A stretch of 39,338 nucleotides of DNA from a virus. The stretch covers positions 1-39,338 of the IMG/VR virus record IMGVR_UViG_3300022924_000013; one strand, given 5' to 3'. The position numbers and the translations under genes are program-made. Positions 2,747 to 39,338 of this stretch are shown piece by piece; position 1 is the stretch's first letter, and each line of letters starts with the position of its first letter. The notes beneath the pieces were generated by a model. It had not been told where the DNA came from and made no database searches. It saw only the letters and a list, made by a program, of their open reading frames with translations.

Positions 2747-3004
2747 CTAATTTATTTCTACTGTTGATATATAAAATTCATACCAGACATCATCATTAGA
2801 AAAACTAATCTTTCCATTATCCCAAGTTTTTGCTCTATCCATGTCGTAACCAGATGACATATGAGCATCTTTAATGGCGCATTTTTCGATTGCTTCTTTT
2901 GCGTCTGATTTATTCTTAAATGTCCCTAAAGAGCCATAGCTCCAATCTCTGTACTTAGTATTTCTAACTGCTCTATATACTACTAACTTGTTATCTTCAC
3001 TCAT
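2747..3004 (-). CDS. Hypothetical protein, 85 aa
   Basis: The N-terminal half has repeated aromatic and basic residues (V-V-Y-R-A-V-R-N-T-K-Y-R-D-W-S-Y-G-S-L-G-T-F), suggesting a small alpha/beta fold. I do not recognise a family. An ATG at 3004 and a GTG at 3007 are adjacent, with AGGGAA upstream of both. It is the first gene of the leftward replication operon, divergent from the recombination operon. A 7-bp inverted repeat (GCTAACG at 3038-3044, CGTTAGC at 3063-3069) lies in its leader and could be an operator or an mRNA hairpin. Confidence 0.6.
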   Translation of the reverse strand: MSEDNKLVVYRAVRNTKYRDWSYGSLGTFKNKSDAKEAIEKCAIKDAHMSSGYDMDRAKTWDNGKISFSNDDVWYEFYISTVEIN

Positions 3005-3075
3005 CACATTTTCCCTGTGTTCCCTATATGAAAGAAAGCTAACGAAGCCAGGGAAATAACCCCGTTAGCAGATTT

Positions 3076-3103
3076 ACGATAGCATAGTGGGGATGGATTG
3101 CAA
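3076..3103 (-). promoter_or_regulatory. Possible leftward promoter of the replication operon
   Basis: On the minus strand TTGCAA (3103-3098) and TATCGT (3081-3076) are 16 bp apart, each matching about 4 of 6 consensus bases. The position, 70-100 bp before the first leftward gene and back-to-back with a much better rightward promoter, is sensible. The match is weak. Confidence 0.3.
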
Positions 3104-3111
3104 CAAAATAA

Positions 3112-3128
3112 TTTCATCTTTGATGAAA
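3112..3128. promoter_or_regulatory. Operator-like palindrome between divergent promoters
   Basis: TTTCATC and GATGAAA form a perfect 7-bp inverted repeat around a 3-nt centre. It ends 8 bp before the -35 of the rightward promoter and lies upstream of the possible leftward promoter, so one bound regulator could affect both. It differs from the palindrome at 98-117, so a different regulator is likely. Confidence 0.5.
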
Positions 3129-3136
3129 ATAGACTA

Positions 3137-3164
3137 TTGACTTATATTTTCACCCGTGTATTAT
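3137..3164 (+). promoter_or_regulatory. Rightward promoter of the recombination operon
   Basis: TTGACT (3137-3142) and TATTAT (3159-3164) are 16 bp apart, each one mismatch from the sigma-70 consensus. The first gene of the rightward operon starts 25 bp downstream of the -10 with a strong AAGGAG ribosome site. Confidence 0.7.
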
Positions 3165-3188
3165 GATGGATAACAACAAGGAGATGTT

Positions 3189-3377
3189 ATGGGTCGTAAG
3201 ATTGAAATTCACTTTAAAATGGTTGATAGGCGCAATACATTTTACGCTACCAATAACCCAGAGAGCGCATATAGAAGTGCCAGGCGTTTTGCAAAGGATA
3301 AGGGTTTTACAGTATCTCGTCAAAAAGCGGATGGCGGTATTAAGTTAAGATTCACGAAGGTGTCAGATGTTTTTTAA
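3189..3377 (+). CDS. Hypothetical protein, 62 aa (first gene of recombination operon)
   Basis: A small basic protein with no recognised family. Alternating hydrophobic and charged residues at the start (K-I-E-I-H-F-K-M) followed by a helical R-S-A-R-R-F-A-K-D-K suggest a small beta-alpha nucleic-acid-binding fold, but this is only a guess from composition. AAGGAG lies 5 nt before the ATG, the best ribosome site in this operon. The end overlaps the next gene by 11 bp. Confidence 0.65.
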   Translation: MGRKIEIHFKMVDRRNTFYATNNPESAYRSARRFAKDKGFTVSRQKADGGIKLRFTKVSDVF

Positions 3378-3705
3378 GAAGCCCAGAATAAAGGATATAA
3401 AGTATCTGGATTTTGTGGCCACGCTTCCTTGCATGATCTATGGAATAGAAGACGGTACGGTATCAGGACACCATTTGCTAAAAACGGGAATGCGCGGAAT
3501 TGGCCTAAAGTCTCCAGATGATTACGTTGTTCCTTTAAGCTATGAAGCACACCATTACCTGCATAATAGTGGATTAAATGAAGATGACTTCTTCTCTGAA
3601 AACGGAATTACCAACCAAGTAGAAATAGCCCAAGCGTTATACGGACACTGGGTAAATAAACAATACGAAGCTGCCAGGGAACTGGTATTACGGAGGGGAA
3701 AATGA
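3367..3705 (+). CDS. Ref/YbcO-like (DUF968-type) putative nuclease
   Basis: This 112-aa protein carries the pattern seen in the DUF968/YbcO/Ref group of small phage nucleases: V-S-G-H-H-L-L at 32-38, then G-x-G-L-K-S-P-D-D at 45-53, V-P-L at 56-58, and E-A-H-H-Y-L-H-N-S-G at 61-70. The histidine clusters are where the family binds metal. P1 Ref is a RecA-dependent HNH-like nuclease, and YbcO of lambdoid phages is a related small DNase. The paired cysteines of YbcO are missing; only C18 is seen. Its place two genes before an Erf-type annealing protein supports a recombination or end-processing role. Confidence 0.7.
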   Translation: MFFKKPRIKDIKYLDFVATLPCMIYGIEDGTVSGHHLLKTGMRGIGLKSPDDYVVPLSYEAHHYLHNSGLNEDDFFSENGITNQVEIAQALYGHWVNKQYEAARELVLRRGK

Positions 3706-3956
3706 CTATTTTAGCAAGAAAGATTGATTACAAAAATCTTCATGTCGGATTTGAGGCTTTGGTTACCGAAAATGGTGGAGAGTTCCATTATGCTATGTGG
3801 GACACTGATGAATATGATGAGATGAGGGGTTATCATAGAGCGTGTTGGAATTATGGTTCTGCTGAAATTGATCCCAGTAACTTTCATCCTACACACTATA
3901 TAGATATACCAGAAGTAAAATTGGAGTGCGAAGATGACAAAACCACAGAAGCGTAG
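3702..3956 (+). CDS. Hypothetical protein, 84 aa
   Basis: An acidic protein rich in aromatic residues (W-D-T-D-E-Y-D-E-M, H-R-A-C-W-N-Y-G) with no family I recognise. The ATG overlaps the previous stop as ATGA and has GAGGGG just upstream, so it is coupled to the nuclease gene. Its last 23 bp overlap the next small gene in another frame. Confidence 0.65.
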   Translation: MTILARKIDYKNLHVGFEALVTENGGEFHYAMWDTDEYDEMRGYHRACWNYGSAEIDPSNFHPTHYIDIPEVKLECEDDKTTEA

Positions 3957-4077
3957 AGACATACAAGCCCTTGACAGATACATCCCGTTATTATCTGCCG
4001 AAAACTGCAAAACCGCCCGATTGCTTTTGTTAAAAGAGCGTATGAGATTATCACTAGAACTGGAGAAGAAGAAATGA
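3934..4077 (+). CDS. Small basic helical protein, 47 aa
   Basis: The ATG has GGAG 8 nt upstream and the frame runs to a TGA that overlaps the next ATG as ATGA. The product is basic and strongly helical (L-L-L-L-K-E-R-M-R-L-S-L-E-L-E-K-K-K). Function is unknown. Coupling at both ends within a tightly packed operon is the evidence that it is real. Confidence 0.6.
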   Translation: MTKPQKRRDIQALDRYIPLLSAENCKTARLLLLKERMRLSLELEKKK

Positions 4078-6143: not shown

Positions 6144-6219
6144 AACCCCCGCCATTACAGCAGGGGTTGAGGTAGGGTCGCATGGCTCTGACCGCCTTGA
6201 AAGAATACTATGAAGTATT
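6144..6219. terminator. Hairpins between two converging operons (weak terminator region)
   Basis: AACCCC (6144-6149) can pair with GGGGTT (6163-6168) just after the rightward stop. AATACT (6204-6209) pairs with AGTATT (6214-6219) around a 4-nt loop, overlapping the end of the leftward gene. Neither is followed by a long U-tract, so termination strength is uncertain. The site is where both converging transcripts should end. Confidence 0.4.
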
Positions 6220-6505
6220 AATTCCCGGTAGAAACCTTTTGAATGGTTTTACCTTCGTCAGAGCATATATAAGCATGACCGAATACTATTAAACGGTGAC
6301 TAATTCCATCTCTTTTAAAATCTATGTGGCATCGTTCTTGATCTGATGTTACATTCTCACCCGTATAAATAAACGATGTAATATATTCCTCGCCTTTGAA
6401 ATCAGATGTATGGATATTGGTATCGACAATAACATCTGTAACATGGTCAAAGATGTGGATTTTGTCTACAGGGGCATTTGTTAGCTCATAAGCTTTAATA
6501 ATCAT
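6218..6505 (-). CDS. Hypothetical protein, 95 aa
   Basis: A beta-rich acidic protein of unknown family (H-I-F-D-H-V-T-D-V-I-V-D-T-N-I-H early on). AGGA lies 9 nt before the ATG. It is the last gene of the leftward regulatory operon, separated from the preceding genes by the tRNA and non-coding RNA cluster, so it may be made from the processed 3' part of that transcript. Confidence 0.6.
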   Translation of the reverse strand: MIIKAYELTNAPVDKIHIFDHVTDVIVDTNIHTSDFKGEEYITSFIYTGENVTSDQERCHIDFKRDGISHRLIVFGHAYICSDEGKTIQKVSTGN

Positions 6506-6574
6506 GGTGTAATCCTAATGTTAATAATGATGATAGTAGACTGTACTATATCATGGGTTATCAGGATTGTAAAG

Positions 6575-6649
6575 TGGTACAGCCAGTACGAGTTGAACGT
6601 ACATCTTGAGCTTAGAAGGCTCTTGTTCTCTCCATTGAACTATGGCCGT
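6575..6649 (-). tRNA. tRNA-Arg (anticodon UCU)
   Basis: A 75-nt cloverleaf on the minus strand. The acceptor ACGGCCA pairs with TGGCTGT (one G-U), followed by discriminator A and an encoded CCA. The D arm is GTTC/GAAC, the anticodon stem is GAGC/GCTC with loop CTTCTAA, and the T arm is GTACG/CGTAC around TTCAACT. Anticodon UCU reads AGA/AGG, arginine codons that phages often supplement. There is one A-A mismatch at the base of the anticodon stem. Confidence 0.9.
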
Positions 6650-6650
6650 A

Positions 6651-6725
6651 TGGTACACCTTAAGGGAGTTGAACCCTAATCCGACCAGTTATGAGCTGGC
6701 AGCTCTACCGTTGAGCTATAGGTGC
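6651..6725 (-). tRNA. tRNA with anticodon CAU (Met elongator, or Ile2)
   Basis: A 75-nt cloverleaf one base from the tRNA-Arg gene, also with encoded CCA. The anticodon loop is CTCATAA on a GCCAG/CTGGT stem, and the D arm is GCTC/GAGC around AACGGTA. The T loop is TTCAACT, identical to that of the Arg gene. The acceptor has a G-U first pair and a mismatch at position 7, and the T stem has one T-T mismatch, so it is less perfect than its neighbour. CAU could be elongator Met or, if lysidine-modified, Ile for AUA. Confidence 0.85.
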
Positions 6726-6730
6726 GTAGC

Positions 6731-7056
6731 GTGGTGTAACGAGTGAATCCTTCCGGGCATCACGGCCAGACTTTTTATCGTCTGAACCTTTAGACAATTA
6801 CACCACTTTCGAGATATTCTAACCGCACAGAAAGAATACCTTGAGAGTGGTGGACAGGCGTATCTTTTAAGATTTAAGGCCTAGGGCTAACCGACGCGCT
6901 TTCCGGGTCTGTACCACCTGTATGACCTATCCAGAAGTAAGCAGCTTCGCACATACGATGTAGAATGACTACATAACTTACGGTACCTGACTGCTTACAT
7001 CTCGATAGGTTGCACGTTTAAACAGAATGCCGCTGTTTGAAAACAGGAGACCCTGT
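6731..7056 (-). ncRNA. Unassigned hairpin-rich non-coding region upstream of the tRNAs
   Basis: About 325 nt without a credible gene holds several paired elements. 6731-6806 is a 76-nt unit closed by a 10-bp stem (one G-U on the minus strand) with a D-arm-like hairpin but no T loop or usable anticodon. In 6849-6918, GGTGG-ACAG pairs with CTGT-A-CCACC, with an inner ATCTT/AAGAT hairpin. In 6926-7009, an 84-nt unit is closed by 6+3+8 bp with two 1x1 mismatches and has an inner ATGTAG/CTACAT hairpin. AAACAG/CTGTTT at 7020-7038 has a 7-nt loop, and a last stem is at 7043-7056. Two minus-strand elements end in ACCA, as the real tRNAs do. It may be decayed or highly divergent tRNA genes, or a new structured RNA. 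Transcription is assumed leftward like its neighbours. Confidence 0.5.
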
Positions 7057-7077
7057 CTTCGGTTCAGGATTTAAATA

Positions 7078-7236
7078 TTACCCATTATCGGTATGTTTGT
7101 CAATAAAAACATTGTTAGCGATTTCCAGTAACAATTCTCCATGTTGCTTCAATAGAGCCTTATTACCCGCATCCTTCACAAACTCCTGGAAGCCTATTTC
7201 TGATAGCTCTTTTAGGGCGGCGGTGTATTTATTCAT
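7078..7236 (-). CDS. Small hypothetical protein, 52 aa
   Basis: The ATG overlaps the previous stop as ATGA, with GGGAGAATTG upstream as ribosome site. The product is a helical protein (A-A-L-K-E-L-S-E-I-G-F-Q-E-F-V-K-D-A-G-N-K-A-L-L-K) without a recognised family. It is the last protein gene before the non-coding RNA and tRNA stretch. Confidence 0.6.
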   Translation of the reverse strand: MNKYTAALKELSEIGFQEFVKDAGNKALLKQHGELLLEIANNVFIDKHTDNG

Positions 7237-7442
7237 TTTTTCAATTCTCCCTTTTTAAACTTTTTAAGTAGTCCAGATGAACGAAGTAGTTTAATCTTTC
7301 TATTACATTTCTCTCTAGTAAAATAATTTGTACTATTGTGATGGTTTAATAGAAATGCACATTGATCATAATTCATTTTATCAACAAACCTATATTTTAA
7401 TAGCTGACTAACTGATTCATCATTCCATACTAATACTGGCAT
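7233..7442 (-). CDS. Small HTH-like protein, distantly GcrA-like
   Basis: A 69-aa basic protein. The pattern W-N-D-E-S-V-x-x-L-L-K, then Y-D-Q-C-A-F-L-L-N, then T-R-E-K-C-N-R-K-I-K-L-L-R is like the helix-turn-helix of GcrA-type and similar small DNA-binding proteins, where W-x-x-E opens helix one and the last basic helix contacts DNA. The tail is very lysine-rich. I chose the ATG at 7442, one base after the previous stop, because AGGA lies 6 nt before it. The GcrA likeness is only a pattern impression; if real it would hint at an alphaproteobacterial host. Confidence 0.5.
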   Translation of the reverse strand: MPVLVWNDESVSQLLKYRFVDKMNYDQCAFLLNHHNSTNYFTREKCNRKIKLLRSSGLLKKFKKGELKK

Positions 7443-7443
7443 C

Positions 7444-7725
7444 TCAATCCTCAAATCTATATTCTGGTGCTGTTTGAACCATAGACGTGAATAATTCTGA
7501 TAGATCATCACGGCCAAAATTTTCCCATCCCATTCTTTCTATAATATTCATAATATTATCAAACATCCATTCCGTTGGCTCTACAGGAACAATCCGTACC
7601 TTACCACTCTCTAAATCCTGTAGGAGTTTAAGATGCTGGCGTGCTGCTTTGAATACTGGCTCTAATCCTAAATCCGCAAGCTTCAGGCAATCAGAAAGAT
7701 ATTTAATCTGTTCTTGGCGTGTCAT
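7444..7725 (-). CDS. Conserved phage protein with V-P-V-E-P-T-E-W-M motif
   Basis: A 93-aa protein with a helical N-terminal half and then I-V-P-V-E-P-T-E-W-M-F. That motif introduces a domain found in many small phage proteins of unknown function, usually continuing to an A-A-P or T-A-P ending; here the end has V-Q-T-A-P. The protein at 12085-12426 has the same motif (V-P-I-E-P-T-E-A-M-M) and S-A-A-P ending. I chose the ATG at 7725 because AGGAG lies 6 nt upstream and the ATG overlaps the previous stop as ATGA. Confidence 0.6.
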   Translation of the reverse strand: MTRQEQIKYLSDCLKLADLGLEPVFKAARQHLKLLQDLESGKVRIVPVEPTEWMFDNIMNIIERMGWENFGRDDLSELFTSMVQTAPEYRFED

Positions 7726-7916
7726 TTCGTCTCCTGCCATGCTCTGTAAGCGGTTAGTGTTTCATTAACGTTCATATCTGTTTCCAAAGCATCCACCATC
7801 TTTTCCAGCAGTGATTGGGGGATTATAACAGAATCTGATAAGACAAATAAAAGATCATGCAGTTCTTTTTTAGTTATGGCGTTATTGGCTGCCCATTCGT
7901 TCAATTTATTATTCAT
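7722..7916 (-). CDS. Hypothetical protein, 64 aa
   Basis: A small, predominantly helical acidic protein (K-K-E-L-H-D-L-L-F-V-L, then L-L-E-K-M-V-D-A-L-E-T-D-M). No family is recognised. GGGGA lies about 8 nt before the ATG, inside the end of the previous gene, which it overlaps by 8 bp. Confidence 0.6.
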   Translation of the reverse strand: MNNKLNEWAANNAITKKELHDLLFVLSDSVIIPQSLLEKMVDALETDMNVNETLTAYRAWQETK

Positions 7917-8064
7917 TTTTTAAATCCCCTATCTCATCAATAACTCTATCTTTGAATGCTTTATACATATCTTCAATATCTATCTTGTCTACAACAACAC
8001 CATTAAAAATGTATGTTATGTAACCAGAAGTATATTTACAAAACCATAGCTTCCAACCAGTCAT
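7909..8064 (-). CDS. Small hypothetical protein, 51 aa
   Basis: The ATG shares a base with the preceding stop (TGATG) and the TAA lies 8 bp inside the following gene. The product starts with aromatic-rich W-K-L-W-F-C-K-Y and ends in an acidic helix with K-A-F-K-D-R-V-I-D-E-I-G. It has no family I know; it may be a small beta-hairpin plus helix protein. Coupling at both ends supports it. Confidence 0.55.
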   Translation of the reverse strand: MTGWKLWFCKYTSGYITYIFNGVVVDKIDIEDMYKAFKDRVIDEIGDLKNE

Positions 8065-8252
8065 CACTTCACATCTTTCTGTTTACGGGCAGCAATTGCA
8101 TTGTCCGCATGCATGTAAGCCTTTTCAGATAAGTTATAGTCGTCTCCATATATACTAAGAAGTACAGGCAACACAGACATCATAATCTGATCCCGCAATC
8201 CACCGATCTTGTAGATTTCCTCACGTTCTCTTGCTTCTTTGTGCATTGTCAT
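8064..8252 (-). CDS. Conserved small phage protein, 62 aa
   Basis: The pattern L-R-D-Q-I-M-M-S-V-L-P-V-L-L then A-Y-M-H-A-D-N-A-I-A-A-R-K matches a small protein seen in many phage early regions, typically R-D-x-x-A-x-x-A-L-x-G-L-L then A-Y-x-x-A-D-A-M-L-A-A-R. Its function is not known. The start overlaps the membrane-protein stop as TAATG. Confidence 0.65.
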   Translation of the reverse strand: MTMHKEAREREEIYKIGGLRDQIMMSVLPVLLSIYGDDYNLSEKAYMHADNAIAARKQKDVK

Positions 8253-8500
8253 TAATCGATACTCCCGGCCTTAAATTTATCTCTGTGGTCTTTATAAAGG
8301 ACAAAAATAAATCCAATAAATAATAAAATAGATATGTTTGCTACAGTCCCAGGATAGTCATCTTTAAAATAAATCAGTAACCATATAGGACTATAAATAA
8401 CAGAAAGCATTACTATCGAACACAGTGAAATCAAAATAAAGCCAGATATTCCAATAATACTATCTTTTATGAAGCTATAAATTATATTTAATTCATTCAT
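8252..8500 (-). CDS. Two-span membrane protein, 82 aa
   Basis: Two hydrophobic segments are visible, at about 10-34 (F-I-L-I-S-L-C-S-I-V-M-L-S-V-I) and 52-68 (I-S-I-L-L-F-I-G-F-I-F-V-L), with a charged loop between and a basic C-terminus. It probably sits in the host inner membrane with both ends cytoplasmic. I chose the ATG at 8500 because GAGG lies 7 nt before it and it overlaps the Lar-like stop as ATGA. Role unknown; superinfection exclusion is one possibility for early phage membrane proteins. Confidence 0.6.
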   Translation of the reverse strand: MNELNIIYSFIKDSIIGISGFILISLCSIVMLSVIYSPIWLLIYFKDDYPGTVANISILLFIGFIFVLYKDHRDKFKAGSID

Positions 8501-8661
8501 TTCTGCGCCTCGTTCCATTTTATTGCCGCTGCCTCCTCAGGAGAATAACTATTAATAGTGCAATTAAGACACCGGTAGGCAGTATCCGTTCTATCGTCAT
8601 ATTTTATTGACAATAATGCTGGCCGCCATCCACAATTCTTACAGGGTAACAATTCAGTCAT
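8497..8661 (-). CDS. Lar-like zinc-ribbon protein (restriction alleviation type), 54 aa
   Basis: The protein opens with E-L-L-P-C-K-N-C-G, has a second pair C-L-N-C at 31-34, and closes with E-E-A-A-A-I-K-W-N. This is the layout of the Lar family (L-P-C-P-F-C-G ... C ... C ... A-I-x-x-W-N). Lambdoid Lar modulates host type I restriction-modification enzymes, and the family binds zinc. It is coupled to both neighbours by ATGA overlaps. A second protein with the same ribbon lies at 11630-12088. Confidence 0.7.
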   Translation of the reverse strand: MTELLPCKNCGWRPALLSIKYDDRTDTAYRCLNCTINSYSPEEAAAIKWNEAQK

Positions 8662-8843
8662 TTCTTCTCTCTCAATATCTGTGTTACATACGCTCTACTA
8701 AATCCCAACATCCTTGCCGCATCTGCTTTTGTATTGCCCCTTGCTGTGATCTGGTTAATCGTGCGGATGACTCGTTTAGGGTTGATCTGTTTGTCCATTA
8801 CAAGGGCGCGGAGTAGGGCTTTTGTTGTGGTTTTGTGGAGCAT
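8658..8843 (-). CDS. HTH DNA-binding protein, 61 aa
   Basis: The last 25 residues form a clear helix-turn-helix: T-K-A-D-A-A-R-M-L-G-F-S-R-A-Y-V-T-Q-I-L. The upstream part is a basic helix. It is likely a transcription regulator of the early or divergent operons. Its ATG overlaps the preceding stop as TAATG; the ribosome site is weak (GGATGAT), so coupling to the preceding frame, which is shifted by one base, may matter. Confidence 0.7.
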   Translation of the reverse strand: MLHKTTTKALLRALVMDKQINPKRVIRTINQITARGNTKADAARMLGFSRAYVTQILREKK

Positions 8844-9002
8844 TATTTATCATCCACGCACAGAACAGCAATCATATTCTTCAAGTCATCGCCAAATTTA
8901 TCCATAAATGCAGCCCTATAACTAGTATCTTCTGGCAAGTCTTTAATGTAATCCCACATCTCCATAGCTCTTTCTACTGTAACCCCCTGCTGGTCTTTTC
9001 AT
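8843..9002 (-). pseudogene. 52-codon gene with an apparent one-base frameshift near its start
   Basis: After the repressor's ATGA overlap, the ATG at 9002 gives only a 19-aa frame. The frame shifted by one base is open to a TAA that overlaps the next ATG (TAATG), and it encodes a sensible acidic protein (V-T-V-E-R-A-M-E-M-W-D-Y-I-K-D-L-P-E-D-T). Removing one A from the A4 run in codons 2-3 joins the two into M-K-D-Q-Q-G and a 52-aa protein. It could be a real mutation, a sequencing error in a homopolymer, a programmed frameshift, or a gene starting internally at ATG 8965 (40 aa). Confidence 0.6.
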
Positions 9003-9178
9003 TTCAAGAAATCCTCATATTTAACTTTGTTTTTAGTCTTTTTGGAAATAGCCGCCATATTAGCTAGTGACGGCAATCTCGATCTTTCAATCCATCTGTA
9101 AACGGTTGAGACGCTAACGCCGATCTCATGCGCGAATACTTCAACGGACTTATCTTTTAAGTAAGTTTTAAGGTCCAT
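8999..9178 (-). CDS. Cro/YdaS-like HTH repressor, 59 aa
   Basis: A small DNA-binding protein: L-K-T-Y-L-K, then V-E-V-F-A-H-E-I-G-V-S-V-S-T-V-Y-R-W-I as helix-turn-helix (13-31), then R-L-P-S-L-A-N-M-A-A-I-S, as in YdaS/Cro-type repressors. It is the first gene of the leftward regulatory operon and sits beside a divergent control region, the place of a Cro or CI-like switch protein. There is no good Shine-Dalgarno. The -10 of its promoter ends 5 bp before the ATG, so the message should start at or next to the ATG, as lambda cI does from PRM. It lacks any C-terminal dimerisation or cleavage domain, so it is Cro-like in size. Confidence 0.75.
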   Translation of the reverse strand: MDLKTYLKDKSVEVFAHEIGVSVSTVYRWIERSRLPSLANMAAISKKTKNKVKYEDFLK

Positions 9179-9183
9179 TGCCT

Positions 9184-9213
9184 ATTATAATCACACACTG
9201 GGGTAAATATCAA
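9184..9213 (-). promoter_or_regulatory. Leftward promoter giving a leaderless repressor message
   Basis: On the minus strand TTGATA (9213-9208) and a perfect TATAAT (9189-9184) are 18 bp apart. The ATG of the HTH gene (9178) lies 5 bp after the -10, so transcription should begin at or next to it. Confidence 0.7.
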
Positions 9214-9220
9214 GGAAATA

Positions 9221-9282
9221 ATTCGCCACAATGCTAATTTATTTTAGGAATAATGCTTTTTAGGTGTTGACACTTGGCGAAT
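9221..9282. promoter_or_regulatory. Two inverted copies of ATTCGCCA (candidate operators)
   Basis: ATTCGCCA lies at 9221-9228, 7 bp upstream of the leftward -35. Its exact reverse complement lies at 9275-9282 inside the spacer of the rightward promoter. One protein bound at the second copy would block the rightward promoter; at the first it could activate or repress the leftward one. The HTH protein at 8999-9178 is the obvious candidate ligand. Confidence 0.5.
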
Positions 9283-39044: not shown

Positions 39045-39236
39045 TTAAGCTCTTGATGAAAAATGAGAGTTTGCAAGCTCTTCACGGTTTCTATTTTCAA
39101 TAGCTTTATAAGCAAAATCCAGCCATTTTTCTTTGGTACAGCTGATAGCTAGGCCACTATCCATACGCGCTACTTTCCAAGCTGCGTCTTCATTTCCAGA
39201 TTTAAGAATTTCGATTGCTTTTGTGTAATTTGTCAT
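39045..39236 (-). CDS. Hypothetical protein, 63 aa (first gene of the left/late operon)
   Basis: A helical protein (K-A-I-E-I-L-K-S-G-N-E-D-A-A-W-K-V-A-R-M) with W and R residues. The first codons lie in the 127-bp terminal repeat, so bases 1-25 of the window are a second copy of its 5' end. It starts about 45 nt after the near-consensus promoter. Function unknown. Confidence 0.6.
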   Translation of the reverse strand: MTNYTKAIEILKSGNEDAAWKVARMDSGLAISCTKEKWLDFAYKAIENRNREELANSHFSSRA

Positions 39237-39338
39237 CTTATCTCTCCGTGTTGGATGGGCATCATTGCCTCTCTGAATATCAGTATATGGGTATTGTGAC
39301 AGGATGTCAATAACTATTTTCAGTTATTTTAAATTATT
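39212..39338. repeat. 127-bp terminal direct repeat, right copy (contains promoter copy 39282-39328)
   Basis: Identical to bases 1-127. It contains the -10 at 39282-39287, the -35 at 39305-39310 and the palindrome at 39309-39328 that drive the left/late operon. One copy should be removed to obtain the true circle. Confidence 0.95.

Follow-up and report, generated by a model that had tools for sequence, protein, structure and literature searches.

A strongly folded non-coding stretch upstream of two tRNA genes in a phage genome: a putative untranslated leader RNA

A stretch of about 340 nt lying directly upstream of two tRNA genes in a phage record folds, when read from the minus strand, beyond what is expected by chance, and it is non-coding, having no open frame. 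The record comprises 39,338 bases, all of which were analysed and are referred to here as the window. We consider it slightly more likely than not that the stretch serves a small phage tRNA operon as its untranslated, structured leader and is released by tRNA processing. The 342 nt of the minus strand reached an MFE of -122.3 kcal/mol as compared to -89.5 in shuffles, and none of 150 shuffles folded as well (0/150); on the plus strand the z value was -5.52, the minus strand (Table 1) being somewhat better. Most of the signal is supplied by two hairpins, namely 6925-7010 and the one within 6797-6856 (z = -6.2). In a sliding fold across the genome position 6921 ranks second, and some segments inside genes score similarly.

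The same two hairpins stand out as inverted repeats. When repeats with at least 17 matches in 20 and a gap of at most 60 were counted, the window was found to contain just two, both in the folded stretch and 72 bases apart, while 60 shuffled windows contained none (57 times) or one (3 times), with a mean of 0.05. The viral loci compared carry on average 0.57 such repeats per 39 kb, and one other close pair was found in 2.96 Mb of them. A single long inverted repeat is ordinary; two near each other are not.

The preliminary description of this region listed five consecutive paired elements. All of them exist on the minus strand, near the coordinates given there, but they are not simply consecutive, and the hairpin 6801-6852 had not been listed. 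The long unit, described as 6926-7009 with two 1x1 mismatches, was recovered as the repeat 6925-7010, the arms of which are complementary at 18 of 20 positions, with both mismatches and a further hairpin inside. The hairpin 7020-7038 is also present with its 6 bp; rival pairings compete with it and it is absent from the MFE structure of the leader alone. The element placed at 7043-7056 is present as well but proved larger. As for the two remaining elements, a 76-nt unit with a 10-bp closing stem and a bulged 9-bp stem, referred to here as units II and I, the pairs can indeed form, but the closings of both are mutually exclusive with the hairpin 6801-6852. Their closing probability is only about 0.01 because the arm 6833-6852 pairs with 6801-6820 instead (P ~0.99). 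The two units share the complementary ends GUGGU and ACCAC, and the unit arms therefore have more than one possible partner. When both tRNA-sized units were forced, the energy was -117.3 as opposed to -122.3 kcal/mol, a cost of 5 kcal/mol, which is inside the model error; since, in addition, the prediction ignores co-transcriptional folding, either form may occur, the two-unit fold being a predicted minor alternative. A pairing of 6909-6919 with the 3' end of tRNA-Arg (11 pairs; duplex p 0.02, longest perfect match p 0.17) was rejected as weak, and it would require the tRNA to unfold.

Table 1. Features of the folded stretch and its surroundings (window coordinates).
Feature	Position	Strand	Remarks
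Structured non-coding RNA, putative leader, ~340 nt	6727..7068	-	fold z -6.36; stops in all six frames
5' hairpin, 9 bp, 4-nt loop	7039..7060	-	mean pair probability 0.89
Second hairpin, 6 bp, weaker	7020..7038	-	mean pair probability 0.62
Long hairpin, 86 nt	6925..7010	-	P ~0.99, z -6.95
tRNA-sized unit I	6849..6918	-	5+4 bp, bulged U; closing pair P 0.011; minority conformer
tRNA-sized unit II	6731..6806	-	10-bp closing, one G-U; closing pair P 0.013; minority conformer
Hairpin (inverted repeat I2), arms 17/20, 12-nt gap	6801..6852	-	P 0.99
tRNA, CAU anticodon	6651..6725	-	ARAGORN and Rfam; CCA encoded
tRNA-Arg (UCU)	6575..6649	-	ARAGORN and Rfam; CCA encoded
Sigma-70-like promoter, TTGACA-17 nt-TAATAT	7075..7103	-	10/12 consensus match; predicted start ~7068
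ORF, 52 aa	7078..7236	-	directly upstream of folded RNA; no family match
ORF, 95 aa	6218..6505	-	downstream of tRNAs; promoter-like site of its own at 6573-6545; no family match

The folded stretch and the two tRNAs occupy the gap between the 52-aa and 95-aa ORFs, and the order on the minus strand is promoter-like site, folded RNA, tRNA(CAU), tRNA-Arg(UCU). The tRNA with the CAU anticodon is called Met by ARAGORN, and by analogy with T4 it is possibly an Ile2 tRNA. Given the promoter-like site just upstream of the folded RNA, a single transcript would probably run through the folded RNA and both tRNAs. This site is proposed from its consensus match and its position; it counts among the six in the window whose TTGACA box is exact, and the total of 10/12 matches in the whole window is not above that of shuffled sequence.

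Bases 1-127 of the record are repeated exactly at 39212-39338, a direct repeat which makes it probable that the record is a complete circular assembly of ~39.2 kb. It encodes terminase, portal, capsid, tail, Erf-like and DnaB-like proteins. The closest relative found (L002; 39,780 bases) shows 85% identity in the capsid and 66% in the terminase, and named phages are far off (at most 48% in the terminase and at most ~30% in the capsid). The folded stretch belongs to a minus-strand run of small genes that opens with a helix-turn-helix gene and extends from ~9178 down to 6218. None of the ORFs within 6218-9178 was matched in the closest relative, where the counterpart stretch is read from the opposite strand and the folded-RNA region is absent. 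The helix-turn-helix gene (8999-9178, minus strand) adjoins two divergently oriented promoter-like sites, one at 9213 on the minus strand and one at 9267 on the plus strand, and the region 8999-9267 is arranged like an early control region.

By sequence the folded RNA is an orphan in the collections searched, and it matches no known RNA family. With blastn at distant settings, phages were matched by the tRNAs alone and no homologue of the folded RNA was found in plasmids; nor did comparison of the stretch's DNA with 13 related viral records reveal one. Matches from four 16-mer scans of viral contigs were inspected or aligned, and none extends as a homologue, while a 20-mer scan of genome contigs gave none. 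Searches with the flanking proteins, and with the capsid protein in genome contigs, led to no homologous RNA locus. Furthermore, a single-sequence covariance model of 6727-6925, run over the relatives and tRNA-bearing phages, matched the window alone.

The preliminary description had regarded the region as a structured non-coding RNA beside the tRNAs that is not a normal tRNA set, and this was confirmed, as ARAGORN and Rfam return the two real tRNAs only. The relaxed ARAGORN check suggested there gave implausible matches on both strands, and intron-containing tRNA scans likewise yielded only implausible matches and were discarded. The Rfam tRNA model RF00005 gave no match on 6727-6925 at E<=10. 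Its hallmarks, i.e., the T arm with a UUCRA loop, the anticodon arm with U33 and an unpaired CCA, occur neither in the sequence nor in the fold, in agreement with the earlier remark that the units lack a T loop and an anticodon loop. The ACCA noticed at the unit ends is present, but it is base-paired in the closing stems, which sets it apart from the 3' end of a tRNA. Alignment of the units to the neighbouring tRNAs was not above chance, and neither was the similarity between units I and II. The folded RNA is thus neither a normal tRNA set nor a convincing tRNA mimic. A core at 6733-6804 is exactly 72 nt long and has 7/7 acceptor pairs as well as U8; it also contains a hairpin resembling a D arm, with a D-stem, A14 and a loop that carries GG. 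The acceptor and D arm need a fold with a predicted P of ~0.01, and the D-arm signature, present in 0.27% of shuffled interiors, was looked for after the sequence had been seen, so that this tRNA trace is suggestive only.

Of the three readings in the preliminary description, namely decayed tRNAs, tRNA mimics and a new phage RNA, the last fits best. Decay would mean that the operon once had more tRNAs at its 5' side and that unit II, perhaps together with unit I, is left over from them, still showing traces of the acceptor and D arm but with its 3' half rearranged. The 72-nt core lends this one weak support and a comparable remnant is known in another phage contig (L104, see below), but there is no tRNA model match or above-chance tRNA alignment, no trace of a T arm or anticodon arm, and the two long hairpins are left unexplained; we therefore consider decay unlikely. 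Less credible still is a mimic or decoy, in which the units, in the minority conformer, would keep host tRNA enzymes or anticodon nucleases busy, in a way resembling what has been put forward for the tRNA-like module of bacterial YrlA RNA; YrlA is a suggested competitive inhibitor of an anticodon nuclease (PMC7790460). Two tRNA-sized units ending in ACCA do adjoin real tRNAs, the two-unit fold is only 5 kcal/mol away and unit I would form first in transcription. However, the silent tRNA model, the missing arms, the paired ACCA, the chance-level alignments and the share of the units in the predicted ensemble (~1%) speak against mimicry, and the window proteins that were scanned included neither Ro60 nor RtcB.

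It is also conceivable, at a rather low probability, that the feature acts or arose at the DNA level, as recent inverted duplications or as a cruciform, replication or recombination site lying by chance near the tRNAs. Both strands fold well, the repeat 6801-6852 folds better still on the plus strand, and the region is an accessory one missing from the nearest relative. Nevertheless, the repeat arms are 85-90% complementary and hence not fresh perfect duplications, and the tRNAs and promoter-like site share the strand with the better overall fold. A structured untranslated leader is favoured by the non-random fold, which is somewhat better on the minus strand, the presence here of the only two long inverted repeats of the window, the lack of an open frame, the upstream promoter-like site and the two intact same-strand tRNAs downstream, with T4 rnaC and rnaD as a precedent. 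Against it stand the lack of a homologue in the collections tried and of a selection signal on the structure, the large share of the signal that stems from two long hairpins, which may have arisen recently by inverted duplication, the identification of the promoter by consensus match, and the missing sequence resemblance to T4 rnaC/rnaD.

According to the leader model, a single transcript would start from the promoter-like site at 7103-7075; its first ~340 nt would fold into hairpins and multibranched structures, and tRNA(CAU) and tRNA-Arg(UCU) would follow. The leader would be released when host RNase P, which is required to generate the 5' end of the tRNA next to it, cleaves at ~6726. Its long hairpins may then protect it, or RNase III may trim them, 6925-7010 being a candidate substrate. 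What would be left is a stable small RNA, or several, comparable to the rnaC and rnaD that T4 produces from its tRNA cluster. Co-transcription, processing and stability, as well as any action of the leader in trans, are what we infer from this arrangement. A bolder version, namely a new class of phage RNA acting as a tRNA-operon leader that switches between the hairpin and the two-unit fold and targets host tRNA enzymes or nucleases in trans, appears to us a long shot.

Several known systems were compared. T4 rnaC (species 1) and rnaD (species 2), stable RNAs from the tRNA cluster of that phage, are also structured and untranslated and are located next to tRNA-Arg(UCU); they have been classed as late RNAs of no known function (PMC9697503, PMC3014915). 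Unlike the RNA described here, which is longer and lies upstream, the T4 RNAs are located downstream of tRNA-Arg, and rnaC has a recognisable T arm, which the folded RNA lacks. Alignment with rnaC and rnaD was no better than with shuffles (p 0.2-1.0). YrlA, a bacterial Y RNA, is non-coding, has a tRNA-like domain, sits with the genes of Ro60 and RtcB and has been discussed as a tRNA nuclease inhibitor (PMC7790460). The folded RNA has no such T-loop-bearing module, no Rfam match to Y RNA or YrlA was found in the folded stretch, and no Ro60 (Rsr) partner was identified among the window proteins scanned, the Pfam scan having covered some of the ORFs. The theta (HDV-like) ribozymes of phages are also small structured RNAs directly adjoining tRNAs, but at the tRNA 3' end (PMC10879173), whereas the RNA here is upstream. 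With a simple descriptor of our own, which recovered the published positive control, an HDV-like nested double pseudoknot with a catalytic C gave 0 matches on either strand. GOLLD and ROOL are structured phage RNAs sometimes found near tRNAs; they are far larger than the folded RNA, and neither had an Rfam match in the folded stretch.

That long hairpins are general companions of phage tRNAs was considered and could not be established. In a first set, 6 of 43 repeats lay within 200 nt of a tRNA, compared with 0.67% of bases, two of the six being the window's own and one a terminator; in nine stretches of named phages the figure was 1/7, compared with 16% of bases. Individual arrangements were nevertheless observed. 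In phage contig L104, a hairpin at 956-1060 consists of the 5' half of a tRNA (acceptor and D arm) and its own inverted copy; it scores 24.5 bits with the Rfam tRNA model, below the cut-off, and is followed after 14 nt by a CAU tRNA. Long hairpins flank the tRNA-Pro gene (653-728) of L063 on both sides (513-592 and 732-827). L278, a capsid relative (46%), carries at 2430-2552 and 2836-4056 a multibranched closed unit followed by tRNA-Pro, tRNA-Gln and a gene for the RNA ligase RtcB (Pfam E 7e-125). In L281 the motif GAACTCCCYTWGGG followed by ATAAAGAG occurs twice (15072 and 15423; the second copy with one extra G), in two gaps after genes and just before a tRNA pair. Upstream of tRNA-Cys in L280, at ~1943-2002, lies a short element AGCGGAAA...UUUCCCGCUCCA that contains two hairpins and ends in CCA; it gave no match to the tRNA model. 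Finally, several long inverted repeats are found in a large tRNA-bearing gap of Roseobacter phage DSS3P8 (L293, 5047-6813).

Ever since T4, phage tRNA clusters have been known to contain untranslated RNAs, for which a function is still lacking. The present case is small and isolated, with its own promoter-like site and only two tRNAs, and would make it easy to test whether RNAs of this type arise as by-products of processing or have an action in trans.
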